In this document: positions 4,096 through 26,639 of the stretch, one piece after another | How positions within the stretch are numbered: position 1 is the stretch's first letter | How the letters are laid out: each line of letters opens with the position of its first letter | NCBI RefSeq assembly: GCF_039655775.1 | Contig: NZ_JBBYXJ010000001.1 | Coordinates: forward strand, 2,255,501 to 2,319,500 | DNA: 64,000 bases | Direction of reading: 5' to 3' | DNA from: Iodidimonas sp. SYSU 1G8 | GTDB lineage: Bacteria > Pseudomonadota > Alphaproteobacteria > SMXS01 | The notes under the pieces: model-generated | What the model was told of the DNA's origin: nothing | The model's input: only the letters and a program-made list of their open reading frames with translations | The model's database searches: none | Translations under genes and position numbers: made by a program

Positions 4096-4166
4096 GGCGG
4101 TCCCCGTTCTTCCCCGTGAATTTTCCCGCCGATCTTTACATTCGGGCGTGACGGCTTCAAGCCCGC

Positions 4167-8527: not shown

Positions 8528-9052
8528 TTAATCGGCCGCGCCCAGCGTGCGCGCCTGGTACAGCAGGTCATGCGGCTTGCGCTTTCCCGCGAGGCGGCTG
8601 CGCGCCGGATCGGTACGCCAGTCGGCGCCGGGCTCGATCCGGCTCCAGTCGCTGAGGCAGGTGCGGTGCTTGATGCGCCATTCCCCGCCCCGGCGCTCGT
8701 ACCTGTCGATATAACGACCCACCGCCAAGTGGTCGTGAGACACGCCGCCGACCGGATAGGAATAGTAGCCGGTCCAGTGCACTTCCCCGGTGGCCGTGTC
8801 GCCATCGAGATCGATCAGGATATTGGTGTTGTCATGGTGCACGGCCGTCCATCCGGAGAGCAGCCCCATCACCCAGTCCACGTAGTCGGGCGCGCTGCCG
8901 ACGAAGGCGCCGTGATCGTCGGTACCGTCAGGCCAGTAGACCGATTCCAGCAGCTCCCGGTCGAGGCGATCGCAGGCGCGGGAATAGCGATAGGACAGCT
9001 CGGTGATCGCCTGCTTGTCCAGGAGCGCCTCGATCCGCGCGTCACGGTTCAC
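8528..9052 (-). CDS. NTF2/SnoaL-like family protein 2
   Basis: The 174-residue protein starts with GTG (MNRDARIEALLDKQAITELSYRYSRACDRLDRELLESVYWPDGTDDHGAF). The GTG overlaps the stop of the upstream paralogue by 4 bases (GTGA), implying translational coupling. It keeps the NTF2-like fold pattern, including NILIDLDGDTATGEVHWTGYY, then GRYIDRYERRGGEWRIKHRTCLSDWS. Catalytic residues cannot be assigned with certainty; the DRLD and DDHG residues line the pocket in related SnoaL-like proteins. It is probably part of a three-gene run of paralogues feeding into the MFS/P450 block. Confidence 0.85.
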   Translation of the reverse strand: MNRDARIEALLDKQAITELSYRYSRACDRLDRELLESVYWPDGTDDHGAFVGSAPDYVDWVMGLLSGWTAVHHDNTNILIDLDGDTATGEVHWTGYYSYPVGGVSHDHLAVGRYIDRYERRGGEWRIKHRTCLSDWSRIEPGADWRTDPARSRLAGKRKPHDLLYQARTLGAAD

Positions 9053-9585
9053 CGGCCGTCTCCCAGGTCGGCGACCATCGCGTAGATGGGATCATCGGGA
9101 TGTTTGCCGCCGATCTTGGCCGCCGGCATGGTCCACATGACGCGGTCTGACGGCGCGTCGAAACGCTCGAAATCGGCGACACCGGTTCGGCTGATGATCT
9201 TCCAGACACCGTCGCGGCGCTCGAGCCGGTCCAGGTAGCGGCCGCCGGTGAAGAAATCCTCCTCGGCGCCAGTCTTGTCGTCGACACGGCGGTGATGGGC
9301 CCAGAAATGGCATTCGGACACGGCCCTGTCGCCATCCAGTTCGATCATCACGTTGCTGATCATGTGCTTGCAGGCCTTGAGAGGCCGGCAGATGGCGATC
9401 GCCCGGTCGACGAAATCCCATGACAATCCCTCGAACATGCCGTGATTGTGCCGCGAGTCCGGATGAAAGCACGAGCGCAGCGCCGCCTCGTCCGCCCGGT
9501 CGCAGCCGCGCGCGTAGCGATACAGCACTTCGGCAATGTCCTGCTTGTCCGCGAGCGCCAGCAGGCGCGCGTTCGTATCGGTCAT
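9049..9585 (-). CDS. NTF2/SnoaL-like family protein 3
   Basis: The 178-residue protein starts MTDTNARLLALADKQDIAEVLYRYARGCDRADEAALRSCFHPDSRHNHG. GGGAG lies 7 bases before ATG 9585; an upstream in-frame start at 9648 would add 21 unconserved residues and overlap the terminator of the next gene. The fold signature continues with NVMIELDGDRAVSECHFWAHHRR and GRYLDRLERRDGVWKIISRTGVADFERF. It is the first of three minus-strand NTF2-like genes and probably heads the transcript running toward the P450s. The function is not assignable beyond the fold. Confidence 0.85.
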   Translation of the reverse strand: MTDTNARLLALADKQDIAEVLYRYARGCDRADEAALRSCFHPDSRHNHGMFEGLSWDFVDRAIAICRPLKACKHMISNVMIELDGDRAVSECHFWAHHRRVDDKTGAEEDFFTGGRYLDRLERRDGVWKIISRTGVADFERFDAPSDRVMWTMPAAKIGGKHPDDPIYAMVADLGDGR

Positions 9586-9644
9586 GAGGTTTCTCCCGTT
9601 TCCCCAGGAACCGAGGATACCCGGCACCGGATGCACTGCAAGCA

Positions 9645-9680
9645 CCAAAGAAACGGGCGCCGGCGTCGCGGCCGGCGCCC
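9645..9680 (-). terminator. Intrinsic terminator after TonB receptor 1
   Basis: On the minus strand a 10-bp GC-rich stem GGGCGCCGGC/GCCGGCGCCC (9671-9680 with 9655-9664) encloses CGCGAC. A T-rich run (GTTTCTTTGG) follows. It begins 17 bases after the stop of the receptor gene and separates it from the NTF2-like genes. Confidence 0.8.
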
Positions 9681-9696
9681 GGGGAAAGAACCGCTT

Positions 9697-12459
9697 CTAG
9701 AAGTCGGCGGTCAGGGTGATGCCATAGGTGCGCGGACGGGTCGCGTGCTCGAAGGCGAACAGGAAAGCCACCGGCGTCGAGCTGAGGCGCTCCACGTCGT
9801 TGGTGAGATTCTTGCCCCAGAGCGAGACCTTGTACATGCCGCTGGGCGATTCCCAGTTGATCGCGGCATCGACCAGCAGCATGGCCCGGCGGTCGAGGCG
9901 GCCGACGCTCTGGTTGCGGGTCATGGCGGAGGTGTAGTTGACGTTGGAGCCGATACTGAGATTGCCCATGTCGCCAATGGGAAAGTCGTAGGTGAAGCCC
10001 AGATTGGCGATCACCTTCGGCGCGCTGCCGATATCCAGGTCGCTGTAGTCGGCATCGACGAGATATTCGCCGATGGCGGTCAGCGTGACATCGCCGCAGA
10101 CCGCGCGGCCGCTGGCGGGCACGGCCGTGGCTTCAGGACCGTCGAGGTCGGCGCAAAAGCGGGTGTACTTGATGTCGTTGTAACCGATGTTGCCGGTCAG
10201 GGTCAGGCCATCGACAGGAATGGCCGTCACCTCCAGTTCGATACCGTAGGAGCGGGCATCGGCGGCGTTGGTGGTAAAGGTCTCCTGCCCGCTGGGCGTG
10301 GCGGCGGGGCGGATGATCTGCCGCTGCAATCCCTTGTACTTGGAATAATACACGTTGGCGTTGACGCGCAGGGCGCGGTCGAACCAGTCGCTCTTGATGC
10401 CGCCCTCGAAATTGTCCACCCGCTCCTCGCCATAGGGCGAGGCAAAGGTGAGTTCGGTCGCCGCGTTGTTGACGAAGCCGCCGGACTTGAAGGCACGCTG
10501 CCAGAACGCGAACAGCAGAATATCGTCGTTGAGCTGATAGTTCAGGCCGACGCGCGGAGCGAAATTGTCCCACGTGTCCTCGATGGGGCCGAACAACAGG
10601 GAGCCGGGACCCGTAGGAAACCGGCTGAAGTCCGAGTCACCCGGAATACCCTGCGAGATGATGTCGGTGATCGGGGTGCCGAAGACCTTGTACTTCTTTT
10701 CCCAGGAATAGCGGATGCCGGCGATCAGGCTCAACGCAGGCGTGACGTGATACTCGCCCTGAATATAGGCGGCCCAGGTCTTGCGATCCTGGCCATTGGT
10801 GCCGAAGCTCTGGAGCGGATTGTCGATGGTGAACGGGCCGATATTGGGCGTGTAGAGCTTCTGGCCGACCTGATATTGGTCCCACAGGTAGAACACGCCG
10901 ACGATCATGTCGAAGGTGTCGGAGAAGTCCGACACGAAGTGGAATTCGGTCTGGTAGGTCTTGTAGTCCTCGAAACGCACCGACGAGAACAGATCCACAT
11001 TGGTGCCGTCCGTGTCCGTGTAGATCGCGCTGCGCTGCTTGGCGTAATTGGCCGTCAGCGAGAAGGTGCCGAAGCTGGTGGTGTAATCGGCATTCATGGT
11101 CACGTTGTAGCTGTTGAGGTCGTTGGCGTTGGGCGAGAAGTTCCAGCCGGTGACGTGCGGGTCGCTGCCGTCGCCCGGCTCGCCCGTGCCACCATCGCCG
11201 AACGGATTGCGCGACAGGCCGCTGGTCGGGTAGAGCGCCTCGAAAAAGCTGGTGTTGCAGTTGAAGGCGGCCGGCGTGCCCGTGGCGCCGCAGAAGGGAT
11301 TCGACGGGGTCCGGGGATCGTACAGGGCGTTGAGGGCGGGCGAGCCGTCGCCCCGTTCGCGGATGATCTCGCCGGTGACTGTCACGTCGAGCGCGTCGTT
11401 GGGCGTGAAGCGGACGCTCGGGCGGAAATACACATACTGGTCGCCGCCGAGGCGCGTACCCTTCAAATCCTCGTCGATATGGCTGACCACGGGCGTGAAT
11501 GGCGCGGAATCGATGATCACCCCGTCATTCTTGTAATAGCCGCTGAACTTCAGGAACTGCGACGCCATCCGGAAGGCGACCTTGTCCTCGACGATTGGCA
11601 TGTTGCCGACGAGGCCGACGATGAACGATCCCGCGTTGGCGACCTGCAGGCTGGCCTTGCCGCCGAACTCGGTCATCTCCGGCTTCTGGGTGCGGACCAC
11701 GATGGCGCCGGCGAAGGCATTGCGGCCGTAGATGGTGCCTTGAGGACCGCGGGTGATCTCGACCGCTTCCACGTCCAGCATGTTGGACAGCGCCCAGGCA
11801 TTGCGCGCCTGGTAGACGCCGTCGATGAACACCGCCGAGTGGGGATCGTCGAAACTTTCGATGCCGCCGGTGGCGATGCCGCGGATGGTGAAGGCGGCCG
11901 CATGCTGGAAAAGGCCCACATGCTGCAGCTGGACGCTGGGCGCGGCCTTGTTGAGGTCCTCGAGATCGGTGGCGAACTTGCGCTCGAGCGCGGCGCCGGA
12001 AAACGCCGAGACCGGCAGCGGCACCGATTGCTGGGATTCCTCCTTTTTCTGTGCCTGGACGGTGACCTGCTCGACCTGCGAGCGCTGGCTGAAAATGCTG
12101 CCGCTGCGCTCGGCCAGCGCCGAGGCCACCGCCGCGCCCGCCGTACCGATCCGGGCGGTGCCCGAGACCTGCCTGCCGGCGACGGTGCCGGTGTAGGGCA
12201 ACGCCGTGCCGGCAGGCAGCGGCGTGTCGGTCACGATGAAATAGGTGCCGCCCTCGCAGCGGTCGCCGGGCCGTTTCCGGCTTTCGCAATCGGCCTTGCC
12301 CAGAACCGGCACCCGTTCGCCCGAAGGCAGGACAACGGCGCCATCCCGCAAATCGCCCGGCGGAAATCCGGTATCAAAACCAGTCACATGGGCAAAGGCA
12401 GCGGAACTCCAGAGCGCGGCCAGAAAGGCCGCGCCGAGTCTCGAAAATCCACGTTTCAT
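9697..12459 (-). CDS. TonB-dependent receptor 1 (with extended N-terminus)
   Basis: The 920-residue outer-membrane receptor has a signal peptide (to about AAFA, residue 23). A roughly 95-residue extra segment, with two Cys at about 58 and 68, comes before the FSQR block (about 123-126). The TonB-box-like VEQVTVQAQKKEE (about 129-141) follows, then a plug with RGIATGGIESFDDPH and RGPQGTIYGRNAFAGAI, and a beta-barrel ending TYGITLTADF with terminal Phe. GGGGAG lies 9 bases before the ATG. Paralogues 2-5 have only 20-25 residues between signal and FSQR, so the N-terminal insert is unusual; it does not look like a standard STN domain. Energised uptake of a bulky substrate is expected. Confidence 0.9.
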   Translation of the reverse strand: MKRGFSRLGAAFLAALWSSAAFAHVTGFDTGFPPGDLRDGAVVLPSGERVPVLGKADCESRKRPGDRCEGGTYFIVTDTPLPAGTALPYTGTVAGRQVSGTARIGTAGAAVASALAERSGSIFSQRSQVEQVTVQAQKKEESQQSVPLPVSAFSGAALERKFATDLEDLNKAAPSVQLQHVGLFQHAAAFTIRGIATGGIESFDDPHSAVFIDGVYQARNAWALSNMLDVEAVEITRGPQGTIYGRNAFAGAIVVRTQKPEMTEFGGKASLQVANAGSFIVGLVGNMPIVEDKVAFRMASQFLKFSGYYKNDGVIIDSAPFTPVVSHIDEDLKGTRLGGDQYVYFRPSVRFTPNDALDVTVTGEIIRERGDGSPALNALYDPRTPSNPFCGATGTPAAFNCNTSFFEALYPTSGLSRNPFGDGGTGEPGDGSDPHVTGWNFSPNANDLNSYNVTMNADYTTSFGTFSLTANYAKQRSAIYTDTDGTNVDLFSSVRFEDYKTYQTEFHFVSDFSDTFDMIVGVFYLWDQYQVGQKLYTPNIGPFTIDNPLQSFGTNGQDRKTWAAYIQGEYHVTPALSLIAGIRYSWEKKYKVFGTPITDIISQGIPGDSDFSRFPTGPGSLLFGPIEDTWDNFAPRVGLNYQLNDDILLFAFWQRAFKSGGFVNNAATELTFASPYGEERVDNFEGGIKSDWFDRALRVNANVYYSKYKGLQRQIIRPAATPSGQETFTTNAADARSYGIELEVTAIPVDGLTLTGNIGYNDIKYTRFCADLDGPEATAVPASGRAVCGDVTLTAIGEYLVDADYSDLDIGSAPKVIANLGFTYDFPIGDMGNLSIGSNVNYTSAMTRNQSVGRLDRRAMLLVDAAINWESPSGMYKVSLWGKNLTNDVERLSSTPVAFLFAFEHATRPRTYGITLTADF

Positions 12460-12610
12460 GACAGATGTCTCCCCTAAAGCGGGACCATCTCTCCCTTGAC
12501 CGTCCCGCGTGCTACAGCTTGACGACTCCCCAAAACGCGAAAATTGTCACACGTTCCTCAAAGGCGCGCCAATCAAAAATCAGCGCGTTCGACTTTTTCT
12601 TGGCCGGGAC

Positions 12611-12641
12611 AGAAAAAGGCGCCGGTGTTGCCACCGGCGCC
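12611..12641 (-). terminator. Intrinsic terminator after TonB receptor 2
   Basis: On the minus strand the stem GGCGCCGGTG/CACCGGCGCC (12632-12641 with 12618-12627) is capped by the tetraloop GCAA and followed by TTTTTCT. It lies about 50 bases beyond the receptor stop. Confidence 0.9.
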
Positions 12642-12693
12642 CTTTCAGGAAAGGCCGGATCAGGCTCAGATCCGGCCGCCCCTCCCCTCTTGT

Positions 12694-15243
12694 CTAGAAG
12701 TCCGCGGTCAGCGTGATGCCGTAGGTCCGGGGACGGGTGGCCTGCTCGAACGAGAACAGGAACGCCACCGGGGTGACCGACAGACGCTGGATGTCGTTGG
12801 TCAGGTTCTTGCCCCAGACCGAGACACGGTACTTGCTGTTCGGTGATTCCCAGCTGATCTGGGCATCGACCAGCAGCATGGAACGGCGGTCCGACCGAGG
12901 CAGGAACACGCCCGAGGTCGCCATCTTCGAGGTATAGCTGAAGCTGTTGCCGATGCTGATATTCCCCATGTCTCCGATCGGGAAGTCATAGGTCCAGCCC
13001 AGGTTGGCGATCAGCTTGGGCGCGAAGCCCAGCTTGAGGTCACTGAAATCGGTGAACGCGATCCAAGTACCGTTCGGCAACTGAGTGGAGCCGGGGCCAC
13101 AAAGGTCGCGGCCGTTAGCCGGGGTCGCGAATGGTTCCGGGCCGTCCAGATCGGCGCAGTAGTTGGTGTACTTGATGTCGTTGTAGGCCATGTTGGCGTT
13201 GATGGTCAGACCATCGGTCGGAATCAGGACCATTTCCAGCTCGACACCGTAGGCGCGGGCGTCGGCATTGTTGGAGATGAACGTCTCCTGGCCGGACGGG
13301 TTGTTGGCCGGGCGGATGACCTGGCGCTGCAGGCCCTTCAGCTTCTGATAGTAGATGTTACCGTTGAACTGCAGCCGGCTGTCGAACCATTCGGTCTTGA
13401 AGCCGCCTTCGAAGTTGTCGATCAACTCTTCGCCATAGGGCGAGCCGACGAAGGTGGTGTAGGCCGAGGCGTTGTTGACGAAGCCGCCCGACTTGTAGGC
13501 ACGCTGCCAGAAGGCGAACAGCATCACGTCGTCGTTGACCTTGTAGTTCAGGCCGACGCGGGGGGCGAAATTGTCCCAGGTGTCGCCGTCCGGATTGGAC
13601 CAGAAGGCATAGCAAGGATTGGCGGTCGTGCCCAATGAGCCGACAGGCGAACAGTCAGGCGCGCTGGAGTTGGTCGGGAACCGCGTCCAGTCGGAGTTCG
13701 GGTCGAGGCCTTGGTTGACGACCGAATTGTTCGGGGCCGAGAAGATGTTGTACTTTTTCTCCCACGAATAGCGGACACCGGCGACGGCGCTCAACTGGTC
13801 GGTGATGTGCAGCTCGAACTGGGCATAGGCCGCCCAGGTCTTGCGGTCCTGGCCGTTCTGGAAATAGGACATCAGCGGATTGTCGTAGGTGAAGCGGCCA
13901 ATGTTCGGAGTCCACAGAATCTGGCCCAGCTGATAGCTGTCATACAGGTAGAACAGGCCGGCGATCAGGTCGATGGTCTCGGAGAAGTCCGACACGAAGT
14001 GGGTTTCGAACTGATAGGTTTCGTAGGTCTGGAACCGGGTCGACGCGAAGAAGTCGATGTTGGTGCCGTCCGTGTCGGTATTGATCGCGTCGCGCTGGTG
14101 CTGGTAGTTCGCCAGGAAGCTGAACGTACCGAAATTGGTGGTGTAGTCGGCGTTCAGCGTCGCGGTATAGCTGTTCAGGTCGGAATTGTTGTACGGCAGA
14201 TTGTAGCCGACCTCGTAAGGATCGTTATTCTTGTCCTTGGGAATTCCCAGTTCGGCGTCGCCGAAGTAGTTCTTGGTCAACCCGGGATAAAGCACTTCCA
14301 TCAGGCTGGTGTTGCAGTTGTAGGCCGTGGGCGTGCCGACGCCGCCGCATAGCGGGTTGGAGGGCGTGCGCGGGTCGTAGGATGGATTGAGCGATATGGT
14401 GCCATCACCGCGCTGGCGAATGAACTCGGTGGTCAGCGTGACGTCGAGCGCATCGTTCGGCGTGAACCGGAAACTGGGCCGGAAATAGACGAACTTGTTG
14501 CCCTGGATCCGGGTTCCCTTCAGGTCTTCGTCGACGGTCTGGGTGATGGGATCGTAGCCGTCGTTCTTGTAGAAGCCGTTGTCCTTGTAGAACTGGCTGG
14601 CAAGTCGCATGGCGAACTTGTCTTGCACGACCGGAATGTTGCCGATCAGACTGACGACCAGCTTGCCGGGATTGCCGTATTGCAGGCTCGCCTTGCCGCT
14701 GTACTCGCTGGTATCCGGCCTGTTGGTGGTCAGCGTGATGGCGCCCGAATAGGCGTTTCGGCCGTAGATGGTGCCCTGCGGGCCGCGCAGCATTTCCACC
14801 GACTCCACGTCGAGCAGGTTTGCCACCGCCCACGCGTTGCGCGGCTGATAGACGCCGTCGATGAAGATGGCCACATGCGGGTCGTCGAAGCTTTCGATGC
14901 CCGACGTGCCGATGCCGCGGACGGTGAACGAGGATGCGTTGTGGAACAGGCCCACGGTCTGCAACTGGACCGACGGCGCCAGCTTGTTCAGGTCCTCGAG
15001 GTTTACCGCGAACTTGCGCTCGATGGCGTCGCTGGAGAACGCCGTCACCGGGATCGGCACTTCCTGAACCGACTCCTCTTTCTTCTGGGCCGAGGAAATG
15101 ACGGTTTCGATGCCGCCGCGCTGCGAGAACAGGCTGCCGCTTTGACCACCGGAGTCCGCCGGCGGATTATCCTGTGCGAAGGCGCCGGTCGCCGCCATGG
15201 CGAACGCAGACGCCGATATAAAAAACGCGAGCCGATGTCTCAT
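12694..15243 (-). CDS. TonB-dependent receptor 2
   Basis: The 849-residue outer-membrane receptor has signal peptide MRHRLAFFISASAFAMAATG..AFAQ, the block GSLFSQRGGIETVISSAQKKEE (FSQR motif plus TonB-box region), plug motifs RGIGTSGIESFDDPH and RGPQGTIYGRNAYSGAI, and a barrel ending TYGITLTADF. GGGGAGG lies 7 bases before the ATG. Loop Cys pairs (NPLCGG...YNCNTS; NYCADLDGPE...DLCG) are shared with all four paralogues. It has its own leader of more than 200 bases and its own terminator, so it is likely monocistronic. It is closest in its N-terminal signature to receptors 3 and 4. Confidence 0.93.
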   Translation of the reverse strand: MRHRLAFFISASAFAMAATGAFAQDNPPADSGGQSGSLFSQRGGIETVISSAQKKEESVQEVPIPVTAFSSDAIERKFAVNLEDLNKLAPSVQLQTVGLFHNASSFTVRGIGTSGIESFDDPHVAIFIDGVYQPRNAWAVANLLDVESVEMLRGPQGTIYGRNAYSGAITLTTNRPDTSEYSGKASLQYGNPGKLVVSLIGNIPVVQDKFAMRLASQFYKDNGFYKNDGYDPITQTVDEDLKGTRIQGNKFVYFRPSFRFTPNDALDVTLTTEFIRQRGDGTISLNPSYDPRTPSNPLCGGVGTPTAYNCNTSLMEVLYPGLTKNYFGDAELGIPKDKNNDPYEVGYNLPYNNSDLNSYTATLNADYTTNFGTFSFLANYQHQRDAINTDTDGTNIDFFASTRFQTYETYQFETHFVSDFSETIDLIAGLFYLYDSYQLGQILWTPNIGRFTYDNPLMSYFQNGQDRKTWAAYAQFELHITDQLSAVAGVRYSWEKKYNIFSAPNNSVVNQGLDPNSDWTRFPTNSSAPDCSPVGSLGTTANPCYAFWSNPDGDTWDNFAPRVGLNYKVNDDVMLFAFWQRAYKSGGFVNNASAYTTFVGSPYGEELIDNFEGGFKTEWFDSRLQFNGNIYYQKLKGLQRQVIRPANNPSGQETFISNNADARAYGVELEMVLIPTDGLTINANMAYNDIKYTNYCADLDGPEPFATPANGRDLCGPGSTQLPNGTWIAFTDFSDLKLGFAPKLIANLGWTYDFPIGDMGNISIGNSFSYTSKMATSGVFLPRSDRRSMLLVDAQISWESPNSKYRVSVWGKNLTNDIQRLSVTPVAFLFSFEQATRPRTYGITLTADF

Positions 15244-15351
15244 TCTTCAACCTCCCCGTTTTTGGTTGCGCCAGACTCCCCCGAACCTGGGCGCGGTTAT
15301 GCTTGTCGCTTGGCCGATGGAGCGACTCTGCCACAGCCGCGCCATTTACAG

Positions 15352-15372
15352 CAATAAAAACAAACATCATGG
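15352..15372. promoter_or_regulatory. AT-rich candidate regulatory element upstream of TonB receptor 2
   Basis: The + strand shows CAATAAAAACAAACATCATG followed by G in an otherwise GC-rich leader, 109-129 bases upstream of the receptor 2 start. A similar string, CAATACAAACATGATG, lies 106-121 bases upstream of receptor 3 (18123-18138). The same position and sequence suggest a shared operator or promoter element; its binding protein is unknown. Confidence 0.35.
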
Positions 15373-15410
15373 TTTAAAACAGACAGACGTCATTTTATTG
15401 CCGACTGGCA

Positions 15411-15442
15411 AAGAAAAAGCGCCGGCGTTGCCGCCGGCGCTT
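15411..15442 (-). terminator. Intrinsic terminator after TonB receptor 3
   Basis: On the minus strand an 11-bp stem AAGCGCCGGCG/CGCCGGCGCTT (15432-15442 with 15417-15427) with a GCAA tetraloop is followed by TTTTTCTTTG. It lies 38 bases after the receptor stop. Confidence 0.9.
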
Positions 15443-15479
15443 CTCCACACAAGGGCCCGAAAGCCGCCTGTTCCGCGAT

Positions 15480-18017
15480 CTAGAAGTCGGCGGTCATGGT
15501 GATGCCGTAGGTACGCGGCTGGGTGCCCTGCTCGAAGGCGAACAGCGAGGACACGGGAGTCACGCTGAGACGTTCGATGTCGTTATTCAGGTTCTTGCCC
15601 CAGATCGACACACGGTACTTGCTGTCCGGCGACTCCCAGCTGATCTGGGCGTCGAGCAGGAGCAGCGGGCGACGGTCGGTGCGCGGGTTGATCGGCACGG
15701 CCGTCACGGCCATCTTGGAGGTGTAACCGGCGCTGGCGCCCAGGCTGATGTTGCCCATGTCCCCGATGGGGAAATCATAGGTGAAGCCCAAATTGGCGAT
15801 CACTTTCGGGGCGAAAGCCAGCGGCAGGTCCGAATAGTCGGCCTCGACCAGATACTGGGTGATGGCCTGGCCACCGATCACGGCCGGCACCGCGGTGGTG
15901 CTGCCGCAAACGGCGCGGCCGCTGGCGGGAACCGGCGTGTTTTCCGGGCCGTCCAGATCGGCGCAGTAATTGGTGTACTTGATGTTGTTGTAGCCGATAT
16001 TGGCGTTCAGCGTCAGACCGTCGACCGGTACCGCGACCAGTTCGAGCTCGAAGCCGTAGGAGCGGGCATCGGCCGAGTTGCTGATGTAGGTTTCCTGGCC
16101 CGACAGGTTGTTGGCGGGGCGGATGATCTGGCGCTGCAGACCCTTCAGCTTCTGATAGTAGATGTTACCGTTCAACTGCAGACGGCTATCGAGCCATTCG
16201 GTCTTGAAGCCTCCTTCGAAATTGTCGATCAGTTCTTCGCCGAAGGGATCGTTGAAGGTGGTGATGGTCGCGGCGTTGTTGACGAAACCGCCCGACTTGT
16301 AGGCGCGCTGCCAGAAGGCGAACAGCAGGATATCGTCGGTGACCTTGTAGTTCAGGCCGACGCGGGGCGCGAAATTATCCCAGCTGTCTTCCTGCGGGCC
16401 GAAGAATACCGAGTTCGGGCCGATGGGGAACTTGCTCCAGTCGGAGTTGGGATCGAGCCCCTGGCTGGCGACCGACGTGTTCGGCACCGCGAAGATGTCG
16501 TACTTCTTTTCCCAGGAATAACGCACACCGGCGACGGCGCTGAGCTGGTCGGTGACGTGATATTCGAACTGCGTATACGCAGCCCAGGTCTTGCGGTCCT
16601 GGCCGTTCTGGAAATAGGACATGCGGCCTTCGTTCAGCACGAAGGGCGCCTGGCCCGGCGTCCAGAGGATCTGGCCGACATGGTACTGATCCCACAGGTA
16701 GAAGACACCGGCGATCATGTCGATGGTTTCGGAGAAGTCCGACACGAAATGCGCTTCGAACTGGTAGGTCTTGTAGTCTTCGAAGCGGCCCGAGGAGAAG
16801 ATGTCCTGGTTGGTGCCGTCCGTGTCGGTCAGGATGACGCTGCGCTGCCAGCCGTAGTTGCCGGTGAAGCTGAACGTGCCGAAATCGGTGGTGTAGTCGG
16901 CGTTCATGGTCAGGTTGTAGCTGTTCAGGTCGCTGTCGTTACCGGCCGGCAGGTTGTAGCCGACGCGGAACGGATCGCTGCCATCTCCCTTGTCGCCGGT
17001 AAGACCGTCGCCGAAGGGATTCACCGAGAGACCGTTCGGCGGATAGAGGGCCTCGAACACGCTCTTGTTGCAGTTGAACCCGACCGACGTGTACGCACCG
17101 CCGCAATTGCCGTTGGACGGCGTGCGCGGATCGTACTGGGCGTTCAGCGACACCGTGCCGTCGCCGCGCTGACGGATGACTTCGCCGGTAATGGTGACAT
17201 CGAGCGCGTCATTGGGCGTGAAACGGAAGCTGGGCCGGAAGTAGACATACTTGTTGCCCTGGATGCGCTGGCCTTCCAGTTCAGGATCGATGTGAGTGAT
17301 GGTCTGACCGCCGACCACGCCATCAACCACGATGCCGTTGTTCCGGTAAAAGCCATCATCCTTGTAGAACTGGGTGGCGAGGCGCATGGCGAACTTGTCC
17401 TCGACGACCGGCAGATTGCCGACGAGGCTGACGATCAGCTTGCCCGGATTACCGTATTGCAAGCTGGCCTTGCCGGCGTATTCGCTGGTGTCCGGCTTCT
17501 TGGTCCGCAGCGTGATGGCACCTGAATAGGCGTTGCGGCCATAGATCGTGCCCTGAGGACCGCGCAGCATTTCCACCGCTTCAATGTCGAGCAGGTTCGA
17601 CAGCGCCCAGGCGTTACGAGCCTGGTACACGCCGTCAATGAACAGCGCGGTATGGGGATCGTCGAAGCTTTCGATGCCTGACGTGCCGATGCCTCGGATG
17701 GTGAACGCCGAGGCGTTGTGGAACAGGCCGACATGCTGCAACTGGACAGCCGGGGCGGCCTTGTTCAGGTCTTCCAGGTTGACGGCGAACTTGCGTTCGA
17801 TCGCCTCGCCCGAGAAGGCCGTGACGGGGACCGGCACTTCCTGAACGGATTCTTCGCGCTTTTGCGCCTGCGAGACGACGGTTTCGATGCCGCCGCGCTG
17901 GGAGAACAGGCTGGTGTTTTCCTGCTTCTCCGCCGGTGCGGCATCCTGTGCGATCGCTGAACCACCCATCATGGCCAAGGCCATGGCGAGCGGCACGATC
18001 GGTTTGCTTCGTGACAT
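15480..18017 (-). CDS. TonB-dependent receptor 3
   Basis: The 845-residue receptor starts MSRSKPIVPLAMALAMMGG with the signal ending AIAQ. ATG at 18017 is preceded by GGGAGG at 7 bases; a start at 18044 would prepend nine residues and cover this site. It has NTSLFSQRGGIETVVSQAQKREE, plug motifs RGIGTSGIESFDDPH and RGPQGTIYGRNAYSGAI, and terminal TYGITMTADF. Loop Cys pairs are in NGNCGGAY...FNCNKS and NYCADLDGPE...AVCG. With receptors 2 and 4 it forms the inner subgroup, which carries IETV where receptors 1 and 5 carry VEQVTV or IEQVTV. Substrate unknown. Confidence 0.93.
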   Translation of the reverse strand: MSRSKPIVPLAMALAMMGGSAIAQDAAPAEKQENTSLFSQRGGIETVVSQAQKREESVQEVPVPVTAFSGEAIERKFAVNLEDLNKAAPAVQLQHVGLFHNASAFTIRGIGTSGIESFDDPHTALFIDGVYQARNAWALSNLLDIEAVEMLRGPQGTIYGRNAYSGAITLRTKKPDTSEYAGKASLQYGNPGKLIVSLVGNLPVVEDKFAMRLATQFYKDDGFYRNNGIVVDGVVGGQTITHIDPELEGQRIQGNKYVYFRPSFRFTPNDALDVTITGEVIRQRGDGTVSLNAQYDPRTPSNGNCGGAYTSVGFNCNKSVFEALYPPNGLSVNPFGDGLTGDKGDGSDPFRVGYNLPAGNDSDLNSYNLTMNADYTTDFGTFSFTGNYGWQRSVILTDTDGTNQDIFSSGRFEDYKTYQFEAHFVSDFSETIDMIAGVFYLWDQYHVGQILWTPGQAPFVLNEGRMSYFQNGQDRKTWAAYTQFEYHVTDQLSAVAGVRYSWEKKYDIFAVPNTSVASQGLDPNSDWSKFPIGPNSVFFGPQEDSWDNFAPRVGLNYKVTDDILLFAFWQRAYKSGGFVNNAATITTFNDPFGEELIDNFEGGFKTEWLDSRLQLNGNIYYQKLKGLQRQIIRPANNLSGQETYISNSADARSYGFELELVAVPVDGLTLNANIGYNNIKYTNYCADLDGPENTPVPASGRAVCGSTTAVPAVIGGQAITQYLVEADYSDLPLAFAPKVIANLGFTYDFPIGDMGNISLGASAGYTSKMAVTAVPINPRTDRRPLLLLDAQISWESPDSKYRVSIWGKNLNNDIERLSVTPVSSLFAFEQGTQPRTYGITMTADF

Positions 18018-18122
18018 TGAGCAACCTCCCTTGCTGCGCGGCAAGCGGGCTTCTCATGTCCCTGCCTGCCGAGATTATTATTTTTGAGCGGCGGGACATT
18101 CACATATCGCGATCTAGTTTTT

Positions 18123-18138
18123 CAATACAAACATGATG
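18123..18138. promoter_or_regulatory. AT-rich candidate regulatory element upstream of TonB receptor 3
   Basis: CAATACAAACATGATG on the + strand lies 106-121 bases upstream of the receptor 3 start. It closely resembles the element at 15352-15372. A second partial copy, GCAAACATGATC, lies at 18178-18189, about 160 bases upstream. The whole 18085-18190 stretch is markedly AT-rich. Confidence 0.35.
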
Positions 18139-18194
18139 AACTTTTTTAGTCTTATTGGATTGTTTTTATACTCCGGTGCAAACATGATCGGACG

Positions 18195-18222
18195 CAAAAA
18201 CGCCGGCGTTTCCGCCGGCGTT
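18195..18222 (-). terminator. Intrinsic terminator after TonB receptor 4
   Basis: On the minus strand a 10-bp stem AACGCCGGCG/CGCCGGCGTT (18213-18222 with 18199-18208) with a GAAA tetraloop is followed by TTTTTGCG. It lies about 50 bases after the receptor stop. Confidence 0.9.
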
Positions 18223-18273
18223 AAAGACGTAGGGGAAGGACCTTAGCGGCCCTTCCCCGATGAAGCTCAAGTC

Positions 18274-20835
18274 TTAGAAGTCGGCCGTCAGGGTGATGCC
18301 ATAGGTCCGCGGACGAGTGCCCTGCTCGAAGGCGAACAGGTTCGACACGGGGGTCATCGACAGACGTTCGATCTCGTTGGTCAGGTTCTTACCCCACACA
18401 GAGACGCGGTACATGCTGTTCGGCGATTCCCAGCTGATCTGGGCGTCGATCAGCAGCATGGAGCGGCGGTCGGCGCGCGGCAGATCCGCGTTGCCGGCGA
18501 CGACCATCTTCGACGTGTAACCGAAGCTCTGGCCGATGCTCATGTTGCCCATGTCCCCGATCGGGAAGTCATAGGTCCAACCCAGGTTGGCGATCAGCTT
18601 CGGCGCGAAGGTGAGCGCGGTATCCTTGTAGTTGGTGGCGACGATCCAGCTGTTGTTGGGAAGCTGGGTGCGATCGCCGCAGACTTCGCGACCGCTGGCC
18701 GGGTTCTGGGTCGGCTCGGGGCCGTCCAGATCGGCGCAGTAGCTGGTGTACTTGATGTTGTTGTAGGCCATGTTGGCGTTGATGGTCAGACCATCGGTCG
18801 GAATCAGCACCATTTCCAGTTCGACGCCATAGGAGCGGGCATCGGCGGCGTTGGTGATGAAGGTTTCCTGGCCCGTGGTGTTGTTGGCCGGGCGGATGAC
18901 CTGACGCTGCAGGCCCTTCAGCTTCTGGTAGTAGATGTTACCGTTGAACTGCAGCCGGCTGTCGAACCATTCGGTCTTGAAGCCGCCTTCGAAATTGTCG
19001 ATCAGCTCTTCACCGAAGGGCTGCACGAAGGTGCTGTATTCGGAGGCGTTGTTGACGAAGCCGCCCGACTTGTAGGCGCGCTGCCAGAAAGCGAACAGCA
19101 TCACGTCGTCGTTGACCTTGTAGTTCAGGCCGACGCGGGGCGCGAAATTGTCCCAGCTGTTGTCGACCGGACCCCAGTAGGCGACGCAAGGCGCGGCGGC
19201 GGTACCCTTGGTGCCGATGGGGCTGCAGAAATTGCTGGGATCGCCGATCGGGAACTTGGACCAGTCGGAATTCGGGTCGAGGCCCTGGTTCCGGACGGTG
19301 TTGTTCGGCACGGAATAGACGTTGAACTTCTTTTCCCACGAATAGCGGATACCGGCGACGGCGCTCAGCTGATCGGTGAAGTGCCATTCCATCTGGGCGT
19401 AGGCGGCCCAGGTCTTGCGCTCCTGGCCATTCTGGAATTCGGCCATGCCGGGATTGTCATAGGTGAAGTCGCCGATGCCCGGCGTCCACAGCAGCTGACC
19501 CAGCTGGTAGGTGTCGTACAGGTAGAACAGACCGGCGATCAGGTCGATGGTATCCGAGAAGTCGGACACGAAGTGGGTTTCGAACTGATAGGTCTCGTAA
19601 TCCTCGAAACGGGTCGAGGCGAAGAAGTTGAGGTTGGTGCCGTCCGTGTCGGTGTTGATGACCGAACGCTGCCAGGCGTAGTTGCCGAGGAAGCTGAACG
19701 TACCGAAGTCGGTGGTGTAGGCGGCGTTCAAGGTCGCCATGTAGCTGTTCAGGTCGCTGTTATTGTACGGCAAGCTGTAGCCCACACGGTACGGATCGGC
19801 GTCCTTGTCGCGGTCGATGCCCAGACGGCCATCGCCGAAATAGTTCTGGTTCAGGCCCGGATACAGCACTTCGAACAGGCTGGTGTTGCAGTTATAGGCC
19901 GTCGGCGTACCGACCGTACCAGCACCGCCGCAATTGGTGTTGGCGGGCGTACGCGGATCGTAGGACGGATTCAGCGACAGGGTGCCGTCGCCGCGCTGAC
20001 GGATGAACTCGGTGGTCAGCGTGATGTCGAGCGCGTCGTTCGGCGTCAGGCGGAAGCTGGGGCGGAAGTAGACGTACTTGTTGCCCTGCAGCCGCTGGCC
20101 TTCCAGATCGGGATCGATGCTGGTAATGGTCTGGCCGCCGACGACACCTTCGACGATGACGCCATCGTTCCGGTAGAAGCCGTCATCCTTGTAGAACTGC
20201 GTGGCCAGACGCATGGCGAACTTGTCTTCCACGATCGGCAGGTTGCCGACCAGGCTGACGATCAGCTTGCCCGGGTTGCCGTATTGCAGGCTCGCCTTGC
20301 CGCTGTATTCGCTGGTGTCCGGCTTCATCGTGGTCAGCGTGATGGCGCCCGAATAGGCGTTGCGGCCGTAGATGGTGCCCTGCGGACCGCGGAGCATTTC
20401 CACCGTCTCGACGTCGAGCAGATTGCCCAGCGCCCAGGCGTTACGCGGCTGGTAGACGCCGTCGATGAACACGGCGACGTGAGGATCGTCGAAGCTCTCG
20501 ACGCCCGACGTGCCGATGCCGCGAACGGTGAAGGACGACGAACCATGGAACAGGCCGACCGACTGAAGCTGGACCGACGGGGCCAGCTTGTTCAGGTCTT
20601 CCAGGTTGACGGCGAACCGGCGCTCGATCGCCTCGCTGGAGAACGCGGTCACGGGCAGCGGAACTTCCTGAACCGATTCCTCTTTCTTCTGGGCCGAGGA
20701 AATGACGGTTTCGATACCGCCGCGCTGAGAGAACAGGCTGTTATTTTCCGCAGGCGCCGCGTCCTGCGCGTGTGCGGTGCCGGCGGCCATGGCCGTGGCG
20801 ATCGCCAATGAGATGACTGGAATGGTTTTCTTCAC
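18274..20835 (-). CDS. TonB-dependent receptor 4
   Basis: The 853-residue receptor is best started at GTG 20835 (MKKTIPVISLAIATAMAAG..AHAQ), with GGGGAG 5 bases upstream; the longer frame to 20955 adds 40 non-signal residues. It has NSLFSQRGGIETVISSAQKKEE, plug RGIGTSGVESFDDPH and RGPQGTIYGRNAYSGAI, and barrel end TYGITLTADF. Loop Cys pairs are in NTNCGGAG...YNCNTS and SYCADLDGPE...EVCG. It is most like receptor 2 over long stretches (for example GGFKTEWFDSRLQFNGNIYY), suggesting recent duplication. It has its own leader and terminator. Confidence 0.93.
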   Translation of the reverse strand: MKKTIPVISLAIATAMAAGTAHAQDAAPAENNSLFSQRGGIETVISSAQKKEESVQEVPLPVTAFSSEAIERRFAVNLEDLNKLAPSVQLQSVGLFHGSSSFTVRGIGTSGVESFDDPHVAVFIDGVYQPRNAWALGNLLDVETVEMLRGPQGTIYGRNAYSGAITLTTMKPDTSEYSGKASLQYGNPGKLIVSLVGNLPIVEDKFAMRLATQFYKDDGFYRNDGVIVEGVVGGQTITSIDPDLEGQRLQGNKYVYFRPSFRLTPNDALDITLTTEFIRQRGDGTLSLNPSYDPRTPANTNCGGAGTVGTPTAYNCNTSLFEVLYPGLNQNYFGDGRLGIDRDKDADPYRVGYSLPYNNSDLNSYMATLNAAYTTDFGTFSFLGNYAWQRSVINTDTDGTNLNFFASTRFEDYETYQFETHFVSDFSDTIDLIAGLFYLYDTYQLGQLLWTPGIGDFTYDNPGMAEFQNGQERKTWAAYAQMEWHFTDQLSAVAGIRYSWEKKFNVYSVPNNTVRNQGLDPNSDWSKFPIGDPSNFCSPIGTKGTAAAPCVAYWGPVDNSWDNFAPRVGLNYKVNDDVMLFAFWQRAYKSGGFVNNASEYSTFVQPFGEELIDNFEGGFKTEWFDSRLQFNGNIYYQKLKGLQRQVIRPANNTTGQETFITNAADARSYGVELEMVLIPTDGLTINANMAYNNIKYTSYCADLDGPEPTQNPASGREVCGDRTQLPNNSWIVATNYKDTALTFAPKLIANLGWTYDFPIGDMGNMSIGQSFGYTSKMVVAGNADLPRADRRSMLLIDAQISWESPNSMYRVSVWGKNLTNEIERLSMTPVSNLFAFEQGTRPRTYGITLTADF

Positions 20836-21045
20836 GAGCACTCCCCTGTTGTTGCCGACGGGAGAGTCGTGTAGCGAGCCCCCCAGTCGCGTATCGATCG
20901 TTTGTTTTTTTGATTCGTTGATCTGGATTTCTACACTCGGGTCTAATGTCGGCAAAACATTATTCGTCTACACAGCTTTTAATAAGCAGTGTTGGTTGAA
21001 AAGCGTTGCAGTTCTGCAACAGCCCTTCGCCCGCGCCAGACCCAT

Positions 21046-21073
21046 AAAAAAGGGCCGGCGTTTCCGCCGGCCC
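21046..21073 (-). terminator. Intrinsic terminator after TonB receptor 5
   Basis: On the minus strand a 9-bp stem GGGCCGGCG/CGCCGGCCC (21065-21073 with 21052-21060) with a GAAA tetraloop is followed by TTTTTTATG. It lies 31 bases after the receptor stop. Confidence 0.9.
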
Positions 21074-21103
21074 GAGGAGTCGTGAAGATCGTGTGACCGG
21101 GTT

Positions 21104-23614
21104 CTAGAAGTCGGCCGTCATGGTGACGCCGTAGGTCCGCGGCCGGGTCGCGTGCTCGAACGTGAACAGCTGCGAGACCGGGGTCGAGCTCAGACGCTCG
21201 ATCTCGTTGGTCAGGTTCTTGCCCCAGACGGACACGCGGTACTGGCCGTTCGGTGCCTCCCAGTTCAGCGACGCATCGACCAGCAGCATGGAGCGGCGGT
21301 CGGTGCGCGGCGCGTTCTGGACCTGGGTCGCCATCTTCGAGGTGTAGCCCAGGTTGGTGCCGAAGCTGAGGTTACCCATGTTCCCGATGGGGAAATCGTA
21401 GGTGAAGCCCAGATTGGCGGTGAACCGCGGCGCATAGTTGAGACGCAGGTCCGAGTAGTCCACGTCGACGATGAAGCCGGCCGGGGTCAGCTCGACCGCG
21501 CCGCAGGGCGTCCGGCCGCTGGCCGGCGTCGCGGTGGTTTCCGGGCCGTCCAGATCGGCGCAGAAGCTGGTATATTTGATGTTGTTGTAGCCGAGGTTGC
21601 CGTTGATGGTCAGACCGTCGGTGGGAATGACCGATACTTCCAGCTCGACGCCATAGGCGCGGGCGTCCGCGGCATTGGTGGTGAAGGTTTCCTGGCCGCT
21701 GGGAATGTTGGCCGGACGGATGATCTGGCGCTGCAGGCCGGTGTGATCCTGATAGTAGGCGTTCACATTGACGCGCAGGGCACGGTCGAACCATTCGCTC
21801 TTCATGCCGATTTCGTAATTGTCGATCCGCTCCTGGCCGTAGGGCGATTCGAACGTGTTCTGGGTCGCGGCGTTGTTGACGAAACCGCCGGACTTGAACG
21901 CGCGCTGCCAGAAGGCGAACAGCAGGATGTCATCGGTGGCCTGGAAGTTCAGGCCGACGCGCGGCGCGAAGCTGTCCCAGGTGTCCTCGATGGGGCCAAG
22001 ACGCAGCGAGTTCGGACCCGTGGGGTATTCGCTGAAGTCCACGCCCGCCGGAATACCCTGCGCCGCGATGGTGGTGATCGGCGTGCCGAAGACGTTGTAC
22101 TTCTTTTCCCACGAATAGCGCACACCGGCGACCGCGCTCAGACGGTCGGTGAAGTGATATTCGCCCTGGACATACGCGGCCCAGGTCTTGCGGTCCTGAC
22201 CGTTGGTGCCGAAGCTGAGGCCCGGATTGTCGGGCGTGAACTCGCCGATGCCCGGCGTGTAGAGGATCTGGCCGACCTGATACTGGTCCTTCAGGTAGAA
22301 GAAGCCGGCGATCACATCGACCGTGTCCGAGAAGTCCGAGACGAAGTTGAACTCGGTCTGGAACGTCTTGTAATCCTCGTAGCGGACCGAGCTGAACAGA
22401 TCGACATTGGTGCCGTCCGTGTCGGTGCCGATCTCGCTGCCCTGCTTCGCGTAGTTGGTCGTCAGGTTGAACGTACCGAAGTCGACATTGTAGGACGCGT
22501 TGGCGGTGAAGTTGTAGCTGTTCACGTCCGTGTTGTCGTTGCGCAGGTTCCGGCCGATCACATAGGGATCGCTGCCGTCGCCCTTCTCGCCGATCGTGCC
22601 ATCGCCGAAGGGATTCTTGGCGAGACCGTCCGGCGGATACAGCGCCTCGAACACGCTGGTGTTGCAGTTGAAGGCCGTCGGCGTGCCGACCGTGCTCGGA
22701 CCACCGCAATTGCCATTGCTGGGCGTGCGCGGGTCGAACAGACCGTTGATCGCCACGGTGCCGTCGCCGCGCTGGCGGATGATCTCGCCCTGGAAGGTGA
22801 CGTCGAGCGAGTCATTGGGCGTGAAGCGCAGGCTAGGACGGAAGTAGACGTACTTGTCGCCGCCGTGGCGCGTGCCGGCCAGATCCTCGTCGATGGTGTC
22901 GGTGACCGGATCGTAGCCGCTGTTCTTCCAGAAACCGCCGAACTTGTAGAACTGGGACGCCATGCGGAACGCCACCTTGTCCTCGACGATCGGCACGTTG
23001 CCGACCAGGCCGACGACCAGCTTGCCCGCATTGGCGATCTCGAGGCTCGCCTTCCCGCCATAGTCGACCATGTCCGGCTTGTTGGTGCGGACCGCCACGG
23101 CGCCGGCATAGGCGTTACGGCCGTACAGCGTGCCCTGTGGGCCACGCATGATTTCGACCGCCTCGATATCCAGCATGTTGGACAGCGCCCAGGCGTTGCG
23201 CGCCTGGTAGACGTTGTCGATGAAGACGGCGACGTGCGGGTCGTCGAAGCTTTCGATGCCCGAGGTCGCGATGCCACGGATGGTGAACGCGGCCGCGTGG
23301 TGGAACAGGCCCACATGCGACAGCTGTACCGCCGGCACCGAATTGTTGAGATCTTCCAGATTGACCGCGAACTTGCGCTCGAGCGCCACGCCGGACAGCG
23401 CGGTGACGGGCAGCGGCACGGACTGTTCGGATTCAGCGCGCTTTTGCGACTGGACCGTGACCTGCTCGATCTGGCCGCGCTGGCTGAAGATGCTGCCGCT
23501 CTGGCCTTCGGCCGGCGGCGCGGCCGGAGCCGCCGTGTCCTGCGCCCACGCGCTGCCCATGCACAGGGCAGTCGCCGACGCAGCAAGCATGAGTACTCGC
23601 CTATGATGTTTCAC
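21104..23614 (-). CDS. TonB-dependent receptor 5
   Basis: The 836-residue receptor is started at GTG 23614 (MKHHRRVLMLAASATALCMG..AWAQ), which has AAGGGG upstream; ATG 23659 is an alternative adding 15 residues before the signal. It has SGSIFSQRGQIEQVTVQSQKRAE, plug RGIATSGIESFDDPH and RGPQGTLYGRNAYAGAV, and barrel end TYGVTMTADF. Loop Cys pairs are in NGNCGGPS...FNCNTS and SFCADLDGPE...TPCG. In its TonB-box region and plug (NKPDMVDYGGKASLEIANAG) it groups with receptor 1 at the other end of the array rather than with its neighbour. It is the first receptor of the array in the direction of transcription. Confidence 0.93.
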   Translation of the reverse strand: MKHHRRVLMLAASATALCMGSAWAQDTAAPAAPPAEGQSGSIFSQRGQIEQVTVQSQKRAESEQSVPLPVTALSGVALERKFAVNLEDLNNSVPAVQLSHVGLFHHAAAFTIRGIATSGIESFDDPHVAVFIDNVYQARNAWALSNMLDIEAVEIMRGPQGTLYGRNAYAGAVAVRTNKPDMVDYGGKASLEIANAGKLVVGLVGNVPIVEDKVAFRMASQFYKFGGFWKNSGYDPVTDTIDEDLAGTRHGGDKYVYFRPSLRFTPNDSLDVTFQGEIIRQRGDGTVAINGLFDPRTPSNGNCGGPSTVGTPTAFNCNTSVFEALYPPDGLAKNPFGDGTIGEKGDGSDPYVIGRNLRNDNTDVNSYNFTANASYNVDFGTFNLTTNYAKQGSEIGTDTDGTNVDLFSSVRYEDYKTFQTEFNFVSDFSDTVDVIAGFFYLKDQYQVGQILYTPGIGEFTPDNPGLSFGTNGQDRKTWAAYVQGEYHFTDRLSAVAGVRYSWEKKYNVFGTPITTIAAQGIPAGVDFSEYPTGPNSLRLGPIEDTWDSFAPRVGLNFQATDDILLFAFWQRAFKSGGFVNNAATQNTFESPYGQERIDNYEIGMKSEWFDRALRVNVNAYYQDHTGLQRQIIRPANIPSGQETFTTNAADARAYGVELEVSVIPTDGLTINGNLGYNNIKYTSFCADLDGPETTATPASGRTPCGAVELTPAGFIVDVDYSDLRLNYAPRFTANLGFTYDFPIGNMGNLSFGTNLGYTSKMATQVQNAPRTDRRSMLLVDASLNWEAPNGQYRVSVWGKNLTNEIERLSSTPVSQLFTFEHATRPRTYGVTMTADF

Positions 23615-23852
23615 TGTGTATCCCCTTCGGAATCCCGCCAGGCGGGTTCTTCGTTTCATCCCGTCGCAGGCCTGGATTTTCGATCCTGGGCTTTTACCTT
23701 CTGGTCCTGAGACACAGGCGGTTTAGCACCGCGATGTTACCGAAGTCCAAGATAAAAAATATTCTCCAACGCTTTTTTTGTTTTCTTTGCGCGGTCTCCC
23801 CCAGCAGGCTAGGCTTCGGCCACGTCGACCGGGACTATTAGGGGAGGGAACC

Positions 23853-24362
23853 ATGTCCGACGCCGCGCAACGCGCACTGGACCACATCGAAATCTATTCG
23901 ACCATGAGCCGCTATTGCCACGGCGTGGATCGCTGCGACCTGGCCGTGCTGAAATCGACCTTCTGGCCGGATGCCACCTGCAATTACAGCGACCAGGAAC
24001 TGGACGCAATGACCTGGGCCGAGAACTGCGTGGCCGGGATCAGCCAGATGGAACGCACCATGCACACCATCGGCAATCACCTCATCGAGGTCGATGGCGA
24101 CAAGGCGACGGGCGAAACCTATTGCCTGGCCTATCACCTGCTCAAGAACGCCGAGGGTGTCCTGACGGACATGCTCGTGGGCGGCCGCTATCTCGACCAC
24201 TTCGAGAAGCGCGGCGGTGAATGGAAGATCAAGAGTCGCTTCTACGTGATGGACTGGAACCACAACATTCCGTCCACCGGCAACTGGACCACCGGATTGC
24301 TGGGCGGCCTGAACCGGGGCGCGCGTTCGCCCAACGACCATTACGACCGCATCTTCGGCTGA
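23853..24362 (+). CDS. NTF2/SnoaL-like family protein 4
   Basis: The 169-residue protein starts MSDAAQRALDHIEIYSTMSRYCHGVDRCDLAVLKSTFWPDATCNYSD, with GGGAGG 4 bases ahead of the ATG. It is a paralogue of the three genes at 7.9-9.6 kb, with the shared pattern IEVDGDKATGETY and GGRYLDHFEKRGGEWKIKSRFYVMDWNH. It heads a compact plus-strand operon (small membrane protein, flavin reductase-like protein, MAPEG protein) divergent from the receptor array. NTF2-like proteins of this class are small isomerases or dehydratases, or binders; the actual role is not assignable. Confidence 0.87.
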   Translation: MSDAAQRALDHIEIYSTMSRYCHGVDRCDLAVLKSTFWPDATCNYSDQELDAMTWAENCVAGISQMERTMHTIGNHLIEVDGDKATGETYCLAYHLLKNAEGVLTDMLVGGRYLDHFEKRGGEWKIKSRFYVMDWNHNIPSTGNWTTGLLGGLNRGARSPNDHYDRIFG

Positions 24363-24366
24363 TCCC

Positions 24367-24618
24367 ATGGACATGATCGACTGGTACGCCTGGCGCATCA
24401 TCATTGGGCTGGGCTGCATGTGGCTGGGCGGCGGCATCTTCATCGTGAAGGGATTGCCTCGGCAGCTGAAGCGTGGCCCACAACCGACGGCGCCGAAGGG
24501 CACGCCCGAGGCGTTCGGCCTCTTCTGGCTGGATCAGTACTGCTATATCGGCCTGACGCTGCTGATCGGCGGCGCGGCGCTGGCGGCGTACAGCCTGATC
24601 ACCGGACAGGGCGCGTAA
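24367..24618 (+). CDS. Small two-helix membrane protein
   Basis: The 83-residue protein starts MDMIDWYAWRIIIGLGCMWLGGGIFIVKG and ends GLTLLIGGAALAAYSLITGQGA. It has two hydrophobic segments separated by a basic, Pro-rich cytoplasmic-type loop (LPRQLKRGPQPTAPKG). It starts 5 bases after the NTF2-like gene and ends 5 bases before the flavin-reductase-like gene, so co-translation is likely. I do not recognise the family. It could be a small membrane partner of the neighbouring enzymes. Confidence 0.7.
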   Translation: MDMIDWYAWRIIIGLGCMWLGGGIFIVKGLPRQLKRGPQPTAPKGTPEAFGLFWLDQYCYIGLTLLIGGAALAAYSLITGQGA

Positions 24619-25668: not shown

Positions 25669-25690
25669 ACGAGCGGCTATCGCGGAAATG

Positions 25691-26524: not shown

Positions 26525-26639
26525 GCACGCTACCCCGTTGCGAGATCTGGTGCCGCGCCGCCGATTTTTCCTTGCGGAGGGGGGCGAAATGCCCTTTGTT
26601 GACGCGGCCTGAATAGAGTTTCCCGGGGAGATAAAGCAC

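Follow-up and report, generated by a model that had tools for sequence, protein, structure and literature searches.

What a bacterium does with five outer-membrane receptors of one kind, placed head to tail, is the question raised by a 64,000-nucleotide stretch of the Iodidimonas sp. SYSU 1G8 genome (contig NZ_JBBYXJ010000001.1, positions 2,255,501 to 2,319,500), here called the window and numbered from its first letter. The minus strand at 9697-23614 holds five intact TonB-dependent receptor genes, designated A to E in transcription order. The main addition to a first-pass annotation of this DNA is that the array represents one receptor slot inside a conserved gene cluster and is not isolated. 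Probably, A-E constitute one importer slot of a conserved catabolic cluster that was amplified and diversified for one class of hydrophobic substrates. This reading is based on intact genes, the clade formed by the receptors, synteny, a copy number that varies between assemblies, divergence concentrated in loops, hairpins resembling terminators, and purifying selection. Receptor-rich bacteria carry dozens of TonB-dependent receptors without an assigned substrate, and a slot that is fixed in one pathway and holds one to five receptors offers a natural experiment. If the pathway ties the copies to one substrate class, differences between copies would reveal the loops that set specificity, and the slot is a testable case of outer-membrane uptake evolving by copying and recombining one gene.

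Receptor A (21104-23614, 836 residues) is the first of the array and begins at a GTG at 23614, with an open frame reaching 23659. Receptor B (18274-20835, 853 residues) begins at a GTG near 20835, and its listed TTG start at 20955 falls within the leader. Receptors C (15480-18017, 845 residues, ATG near 18017) and D (12694-15243, 849 residues) follow, and the array ends with receptor E (9697-12459, 920 residues), which bears an extra N-terminal domain. Starts were chosen by ribosome-binding site and signal peptide, the latter judged by eye; listed from the first possible start, the five open frames span 9697-23659. The five complete receptors of 836-920 residues, head to tail on one strand, were reproduced with these lengths and boundaries. 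The Plug and TonB-dependent barrel domains exceeded both Pfam cut-offs in all five. All frames are open, the sole TGA reported for D sits upstream of its ATG, and the check for frameshifts found none of the five broken. The FSQR block and the TADF C-terminal end were common to all of them, as first annotated; FSQR lies ahead of a TonB-box-like stretch. Pairwise identity among the five ranged from 62 to 81%. The SusC/RagA model TIGR04056 was listed for receptor C alone, at 47 bits and below its cut-off of 368, and no SusD partner gene was found among the 15 flanking frames (518-30081) annotated with Pfam.

Synteny was compared over nine loci from seven genomes, with relatives that belong to one small alphaproteobacterial family. 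In three members of the genus (G002, G003, and G004) the same flanking genes occurred in the same order as far as the contigs extend, and in G007 the cluster was as in the window except that SnoaL-like protein 1 was undetected. Two SnoaL-like genes followed the slot in G001, and one in G009, where the cluster has a single P450 and two genes for MFS transporters; G001 and G009 also carry a GMC oxidoreductase and an MMPL transporter. Overall, cluster genes bordered the slot on either side in six relatives, four from the genus (2, 2, 2, and 3 receptors) and two from other genera (one receptor each). The first-pass annotation had proposed looking for the array in related genomes, and there the contiguous slot was found to hold one to three receptors: one in G001 and G009, two in G002, G003, and G007, and three in G004, compared with five in the window. 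In the genus members G005 and G006 the slot is broken, within or at it, by the assembly. The flanking proteins were 75-93% identical within the genus and the MFS protein 55-69%, with values of 67 and 76% in G005, which has two MFS genes. The G008 assembly (91% complete) had no slot receptor at an E-value of 1e-150 and no close flavin reductase. The array had also been set against receptors that occur with partner genes; this contrast was not upheld, as the array itself sits within a conserved catabolic cluster.

As a side observation, the MFS gene of the cluster is duplicated in G005 (L145 1879-4943), where the slot is split over contigs L145 and L146.

When all 55 receptors of the genome were placed in a tree, A-E formed a fully supported clade, in line with the claim of one subfamily and without scatter among unrelated families. 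The nearest kin of this clade were an array of four at C1:1054-1065 kb and one solitary receptor. Within the clade, A grouped with E, with moderate support here and strong support in the barrel tree, and C formed a group with B and D, which means that sister genes are not always neighbours. In the subfamily tree, A-E and the slot receptors of the relatives made up one fully supported group, in which A-E alone were not a group. B joined the first receptor of G004, and D joined receptors of G003, G004, G007, and G002, while the A/E branch fell outside all receptors of the other genus members; B and D thus have closer relatives in other species than in A and E. Several duplications therefore predate these species splits. 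No contiguous slot of another genus member contains the A/E branch, either through loss there or through gain here.

Synonymous divergence (dS) for the ten pairs among A-E ranged from 0.54 to 0.91, with ratios of nonsynonymous to synonymous divergence (dN/dS) of 0.24-0.46, and the copies are therefore old and kept under purifying selection. Like-to-like comparisons across species gave a dS of 0.45 for B and the first G004 receptor and 0.40 for D and the first G003 receptor, in partial agreement with the tree. The receptor of G006, cut by a contig end, was left out of trees, alignments, and dS, and the dS analysis also set aside G001 and G009. Separately, receptors from loci titled Candidatus Kuenenia (L042) and Rhizobium sp. 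Q54 (L038 and L040) grouped with this alphaproteobacterial family, and these titles may be misassigned.

The differences between the copies were located on a model of E, the one receptor of the five that was modelled, which has a mean predicted local distance difference test score (pLDDT) of 79.1 and places the plug within a 22-strand barrel. Strands were assigned on this model by the author, and the structure-based alignment comprised 40 rows (5 from the window, 6 slot receptors of relatives, and 29 from other fetched loci). Among A-E, 62.7% of the columns in extracellular loops were variable, compared with 42.5, 42.9, and 43.2% in the plug, strands, and periplasmic turns, respectively. For B, C, and D the corresponding shares were 48.8% in loops and 17.8, 25.5, and 20.5% in the plug, strands, and turns. 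G007 was an exception, as its loops (12.0%) were not the most variable class and its strands reached 14.3%. In four of the ten window pairs (A-E, B-C, B-D, and C-D), dN/dS was 0.32-0.47 in loops compared with 0.11-0.19 in the plug. This loop bias fits an altered contact with ligands on what would be a conserved engine, and it also fits the usual looseness of loops.

The first-pass annotation had given each receptor its own signal peptide, leader, and intrinsic terminator. A stem of 9-11 perfect pairs followed by a T-run within 110 nucleotides of the stop codon was found for all five receptors, compared with 20 of 4000 random pieces of the window. These hairpins lie on the minus strand at 21044-21073 after A and 9646-9681 after E, ahead of a SnoaL-like gene, and at approximate coordinates of 18190-18220, 15408-15441, and 12605-12641 after B, C, and D, respectively. 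After 11 receptors from relatives were added, a GC-rich terminator hairpin with a T-run was seen in 15 of 16, the one without being that of G009. A generic terminator scan of the region listed 13 sites against 14.0 in shuffled sequences and gave no excess; among the five it listed only the hairpins after A and E, and it missed those after B, C, and D because its T rule is stricter. The leaders of A-E (151-256 nucleotides as cut) were mutually unalike, with a highest pairwise z of 2.0, the level of shuffled sequences; the leader comparison set aside G001 and G009. The region at 23615-23850 is a divergent leader between receptor A and a plus-strand SnoaL-like gene. Rfam at gathering scores returned just two tRNAs across the window and no RNA elements in the leaders, and consensus sigma-70 promoters were uninformative (one found in the region, 3.2 expected by chance). 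Each of A-E looks like a transcription unit of its own, with leader, putative signal peptide, plug, barrel, and terminator, so that these elements stand as first annotated, with terminators in five of five. Expression chosen by condition, which had also been suggested, would be permitted by the separate terminators and unlike leaders.

Elsewhere in the genus, the leaders of the last receptors of G003 (L125), G007 (L127), and G004 (L126) each contained two AT-rich promoter-like blocks. In G007, one block resembled the leader of C (z 7.7) and the other that of D (z 5.4), while the likeness was uneven in G003 and G004. A search of these three double leaders for receptor remnants yielded none, the best match having a z of 3.5 and lying off any start region. 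At a guess, these leaders could hold promoters in tandem or mark the place where a receptor was lost, which are equally good readings.

If A-E are one amplified importer slot, an old tandem duplication would have multiplied a single receptor gene, and the copies would then have diversified. The receptors would carry a bulky hydrophobic substrate class over the outer membrane, energised by TonB, the MFS protein would move the substrate across the inner membrane, and the two P450s followed by the CoA enzymes would degrade it. For this scheme we infer TonB dependence, direction of transport, substrate class, division of labour, and separate regulation. Because the copies differ mainly in their extracellular loops, it is most likely that A-E recognise distinct members of a single substrate class or share one member, bound with different affinity or under different conditions. 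The chemically related substrates that had been proposed are plausible from the position of the slot in one catabolic cluster and from the concentration of variation in loops. Judging by the neighbouring genes, the cluster would oxidise a hydrophobic compound and break it down in a CoA-dependent manner, and the arrangement suggests that multiplying one receptor gene can widen or diversify the uptake of food molecules.

Several observations weigh against the importer-slot reading. No regulator was recognised in the flank scan, the nearest one seen being a LysR-type gene at 37919-38821, beyond the cluster. The relatives are draft assemblies in which receptor copy numbers may be too low. Loops are generally the variable part of TonB-dependent receptors, so that the loop bias alone is no proof of new specificities, and no positive selection was detected in loops, as every site-class average of dN/dS stayed below 1 across the 11 pairs compared. 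Dates drawn from dS are imprecise, since D and the third G004 receptor gave values of 0.53-0.74 by class, as high as between paralogues. The P450s do not fix the substrate either: the best PDB relative of P450 b was a construct named CYP125MRCA, followed by many others. By its name, this construct is presumably an ancestral CYP125. CYP125 enzymes act on cholesterol, and the kinship hints at sterol- or isoprenoid-like substrates and proves nothing.

The same loop pattern could arise if all copies took up the same substrate and their exposed loops had diverged under attack by phages or bacteriocins, so that antigenically different copies sustain uptake. Variation is indeed concentrated in the extracellular loops, which had the highest dN/dS of any class in the four window pairs split by class. 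However, no loop class averaged above 1, and B with the first G004 receptor and D with the first G003 and third G004 receptors have kept their loops across species (dN/dS 0.13-0.23), which argues against a fast arms race and makes this escape unlikely. That the copies merely raise the amount of one importer would suit a copy number that varies among species. An array kept for dosage is, however, expected to be recent or homogenised, and copies that are just 62-81% identical, at a dS of at least 0.54 and with differing leaders, leave this explanation with little probability. Equally improbable is that A-E are ordinary duplicates with no special role, as could be expected in a genome with 55 receptors and several other arrays; five intact genes with such low dN/dS over such high dS look selected for function. 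Phage escape, dosage, and neutral duplication are therefore weaker explanations than an amplified and diversified importer slot.

Signs of recombination were seen in the relatives. The two receptors of G003 had nearly identical plugs and differing barrels, with a dS of 0.03 in the plug, 0.24 in strands, and 0.22 in loops, and copies 2 and 3 of G004 showed a milder pattern (0.29 against 0.43 and 0.59). The plug tree united the G003 copies (identical rows) and the G004 copies (94% bootstrap), compared with 10% each in the barrel tree, while the G007 copies were joined in neither (26 and 0%); both trees hold many open forks and were built with G001 and G009 left out. Gene conversion would be the natural reading of the G003 plugs, though a chimera in a draft assembly could look alike. 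Among A-E, no codon window in any of the ten pairs had a dS near zero (lowest 0.23), and recent gene conversion was not detected. In the last receptor of G002, the leader resembles that of C (z 19.8), the extra domain resembles that of E (50%), and the body groups with the D clade, a mixture that is a second sign of shuffling. Tentatively, the slot could be a diversifying receptor repertoire with tandem birth and loss, in which plugs are homogenised by gene conversion while barrels and loops diverge, and copies exchange their N-terminal domains and leaders, although we consider this rather doubtful. If it were true, one conserved pathway would gain changing entry gates, with a new accessory domain marking the last gate in two species.

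This accessory domain was folded in E as the stretch at 12094-12390 (minus strand), about 90 residues from the predicted mature His with two conserved Cys. It was not found on the other 54 receptors of the genome. Six clear copies were identified, in E, in the last receptor of G002 (L037 8931-9224), and in four receptors of G001 (L140, L142, L143, and L144); a seventh match, in G002, was weak (E-value 0.009). All six start with His at the predicted cleavage site and share the two Cys. Among 385 genomes sampled from the class, with at most 13 candidates scored per genome, the domain occurred in the present genome (G000) and G001 only, and G002 would by inference lie outside this sample; the three genomes in which it has been seen so far all belong to this family. 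The bodies of E and of the domain-bearing G002 receptor fall in different clades. No Pfam family was found at E-values up to 10 for the domain of E or its G002 relative, and PDB sequences gave no match to the E domain at the same limit. The model, built from two sequences (pLDDT 80.6, predicted template modelling score 0.69), suggests a small beta-rich domain without a convincing match: Foldseek returned nothing at E-values up to 0.001, and VIA-align gave no row with Z of at least 5 among 825 chains, which does not make the fold new. In G001, one domain-bearing receptor (L147 4939-10014) adjoins a P450 that is 50% identical to P450 b of the window.

Long arrays of one subfamily had been called rare. 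The genome (3.92 Mb, two contigs) gave 55 Plug and 55 barrel matches, and 35 of the 55 receptors are indeed solitary, but the others stand in arrays of 5, 4, 4, 3, 2, and 2, so that the claim was borne out only in part. The longest array in five relatives of the same family comprised three receptors, in a census of six genomes of which five are drafts of 20-140 contigs. Among 79 loci kept from 142 relatives found in a species-genome collection, 68 held a single receptor, 11 held pairs, and none held three; of these pairs, that of L108 is a single gene that is broken, that of L045 is cut by the contig end, and four or more belong to the same family. Many of the loci are short. The array of the window is the longest seen here, yet arrays are habitual in this genome. 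The second array of four (G000:C2:667285-678283, L023) adjoins two P450s that are 35-42% identical to those of the window, two ABM-domain proteins, and an MFS transporter (37% identity), and the arrangement of a P450 pair, receptors, and MFS transporter therefore recurs in the genome. The other array of four (G000:C1:1054033-1065109, L006) has amidohydrolase and TENA/THI-4 genes as neighbours, as well as an RND efflux pump with its fusion protein, and three receptors at C1:701403-707221 in G004 are possibly the same array.

The flanking frames scanned comprise the following genes. Downstream of E on the minus strand are three SnoaL_4-like proteins, of which protein 3 (9049-9648) adjoins E and proteins 2 (8528-9052) and 1 (7881-8507) follow, then an MFS transporter that is the candidate inner-membrane partner (6417-7787), and the cytochromes P450 b (5080-6339) and P450 a (2818-4335, start uncertain), which are about 65% identical. 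Beyond them, on the plus strand, lie a glutathione S-transferase-like protein (2074-2811) and a MAPEG-domain protein (518-2062, start uncertain), the domain being at the C-terminal end of a long frame. On the other side of the array, SnoaL_4-like protein 4 (23778-24362, plus strand, start uncertain) is divergent from receptor A. It is followed on the plus strand by a small conserved protein of 83 residues without a Pfam family (24367-24618) and a flavin-reductase-like protein (24623-25276); a MAPEG-like frame at about 25274-25669 lay outside the scan. Of two enoyl-CoA hydratases/isomerases (crotonases), number 1 is on the minus strand (25745-26860; the frame begins too early, with the domain at residues 124-370) and number 2 on the plus strand (26640-27437). 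A class III CoA-transferase (27443-28591) and a malonyl-CoA decarboxylase (28666-30081), both on the plus strand, complete the set.

Against known systems, the best solved relative by profile was FyuA, the ferric-yersiniabactin receptor, in the plug region only. It was also the best fold match, with a template modelling score of 0.90 on the target and 0.62 on the query at 16% identity. We take FyuA to be a siderophore receptor with other gene neighbours, and the shared fold says nothing on the substrate. E resembles transducing receptors of the FecA, FpvA, and FoxA type (PMC11658791) in that a domain of about 90 residues at its N-terminus precedes the TonB-box region. The domain of E differs from that type in having no match to the STN signalling domain (no Pfam family, as above), and no FecI/FecR-type sigma and anti-sigma genes were found in the flank scan.

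The literature was searched by title and abstract opening among open-licence PubMed Central papers, and none of the papers listed was on tandem receptor arrays, which does not rule out that such work exists. A tested precedent for such a receptor is EdcT, a TonB-dependent receptor in a P450-containing estrogen cluster of Novosphingobium tardaugens, the deletion of which slowed growth on estradiol (PMC7793797). No counterpart of the families of its edcB-type ring-cleavage dioxygenase or edcC-type indolepyruvate oxidoreductase is among the 15 flanking frames here, and the edc cluster has one receptor compared with five. In each case a receptor is encoded alongside P450 and CoA-pathway enzymes in a catabolic cluster of an alphaproteobacterium, arranged as two divergent operons. 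The array is a notable variant of a known arrangement and not a new kind of system, and its interest lies less in an isolated array than in a slot whose receptor number varies while the pathway around it stays fixed.

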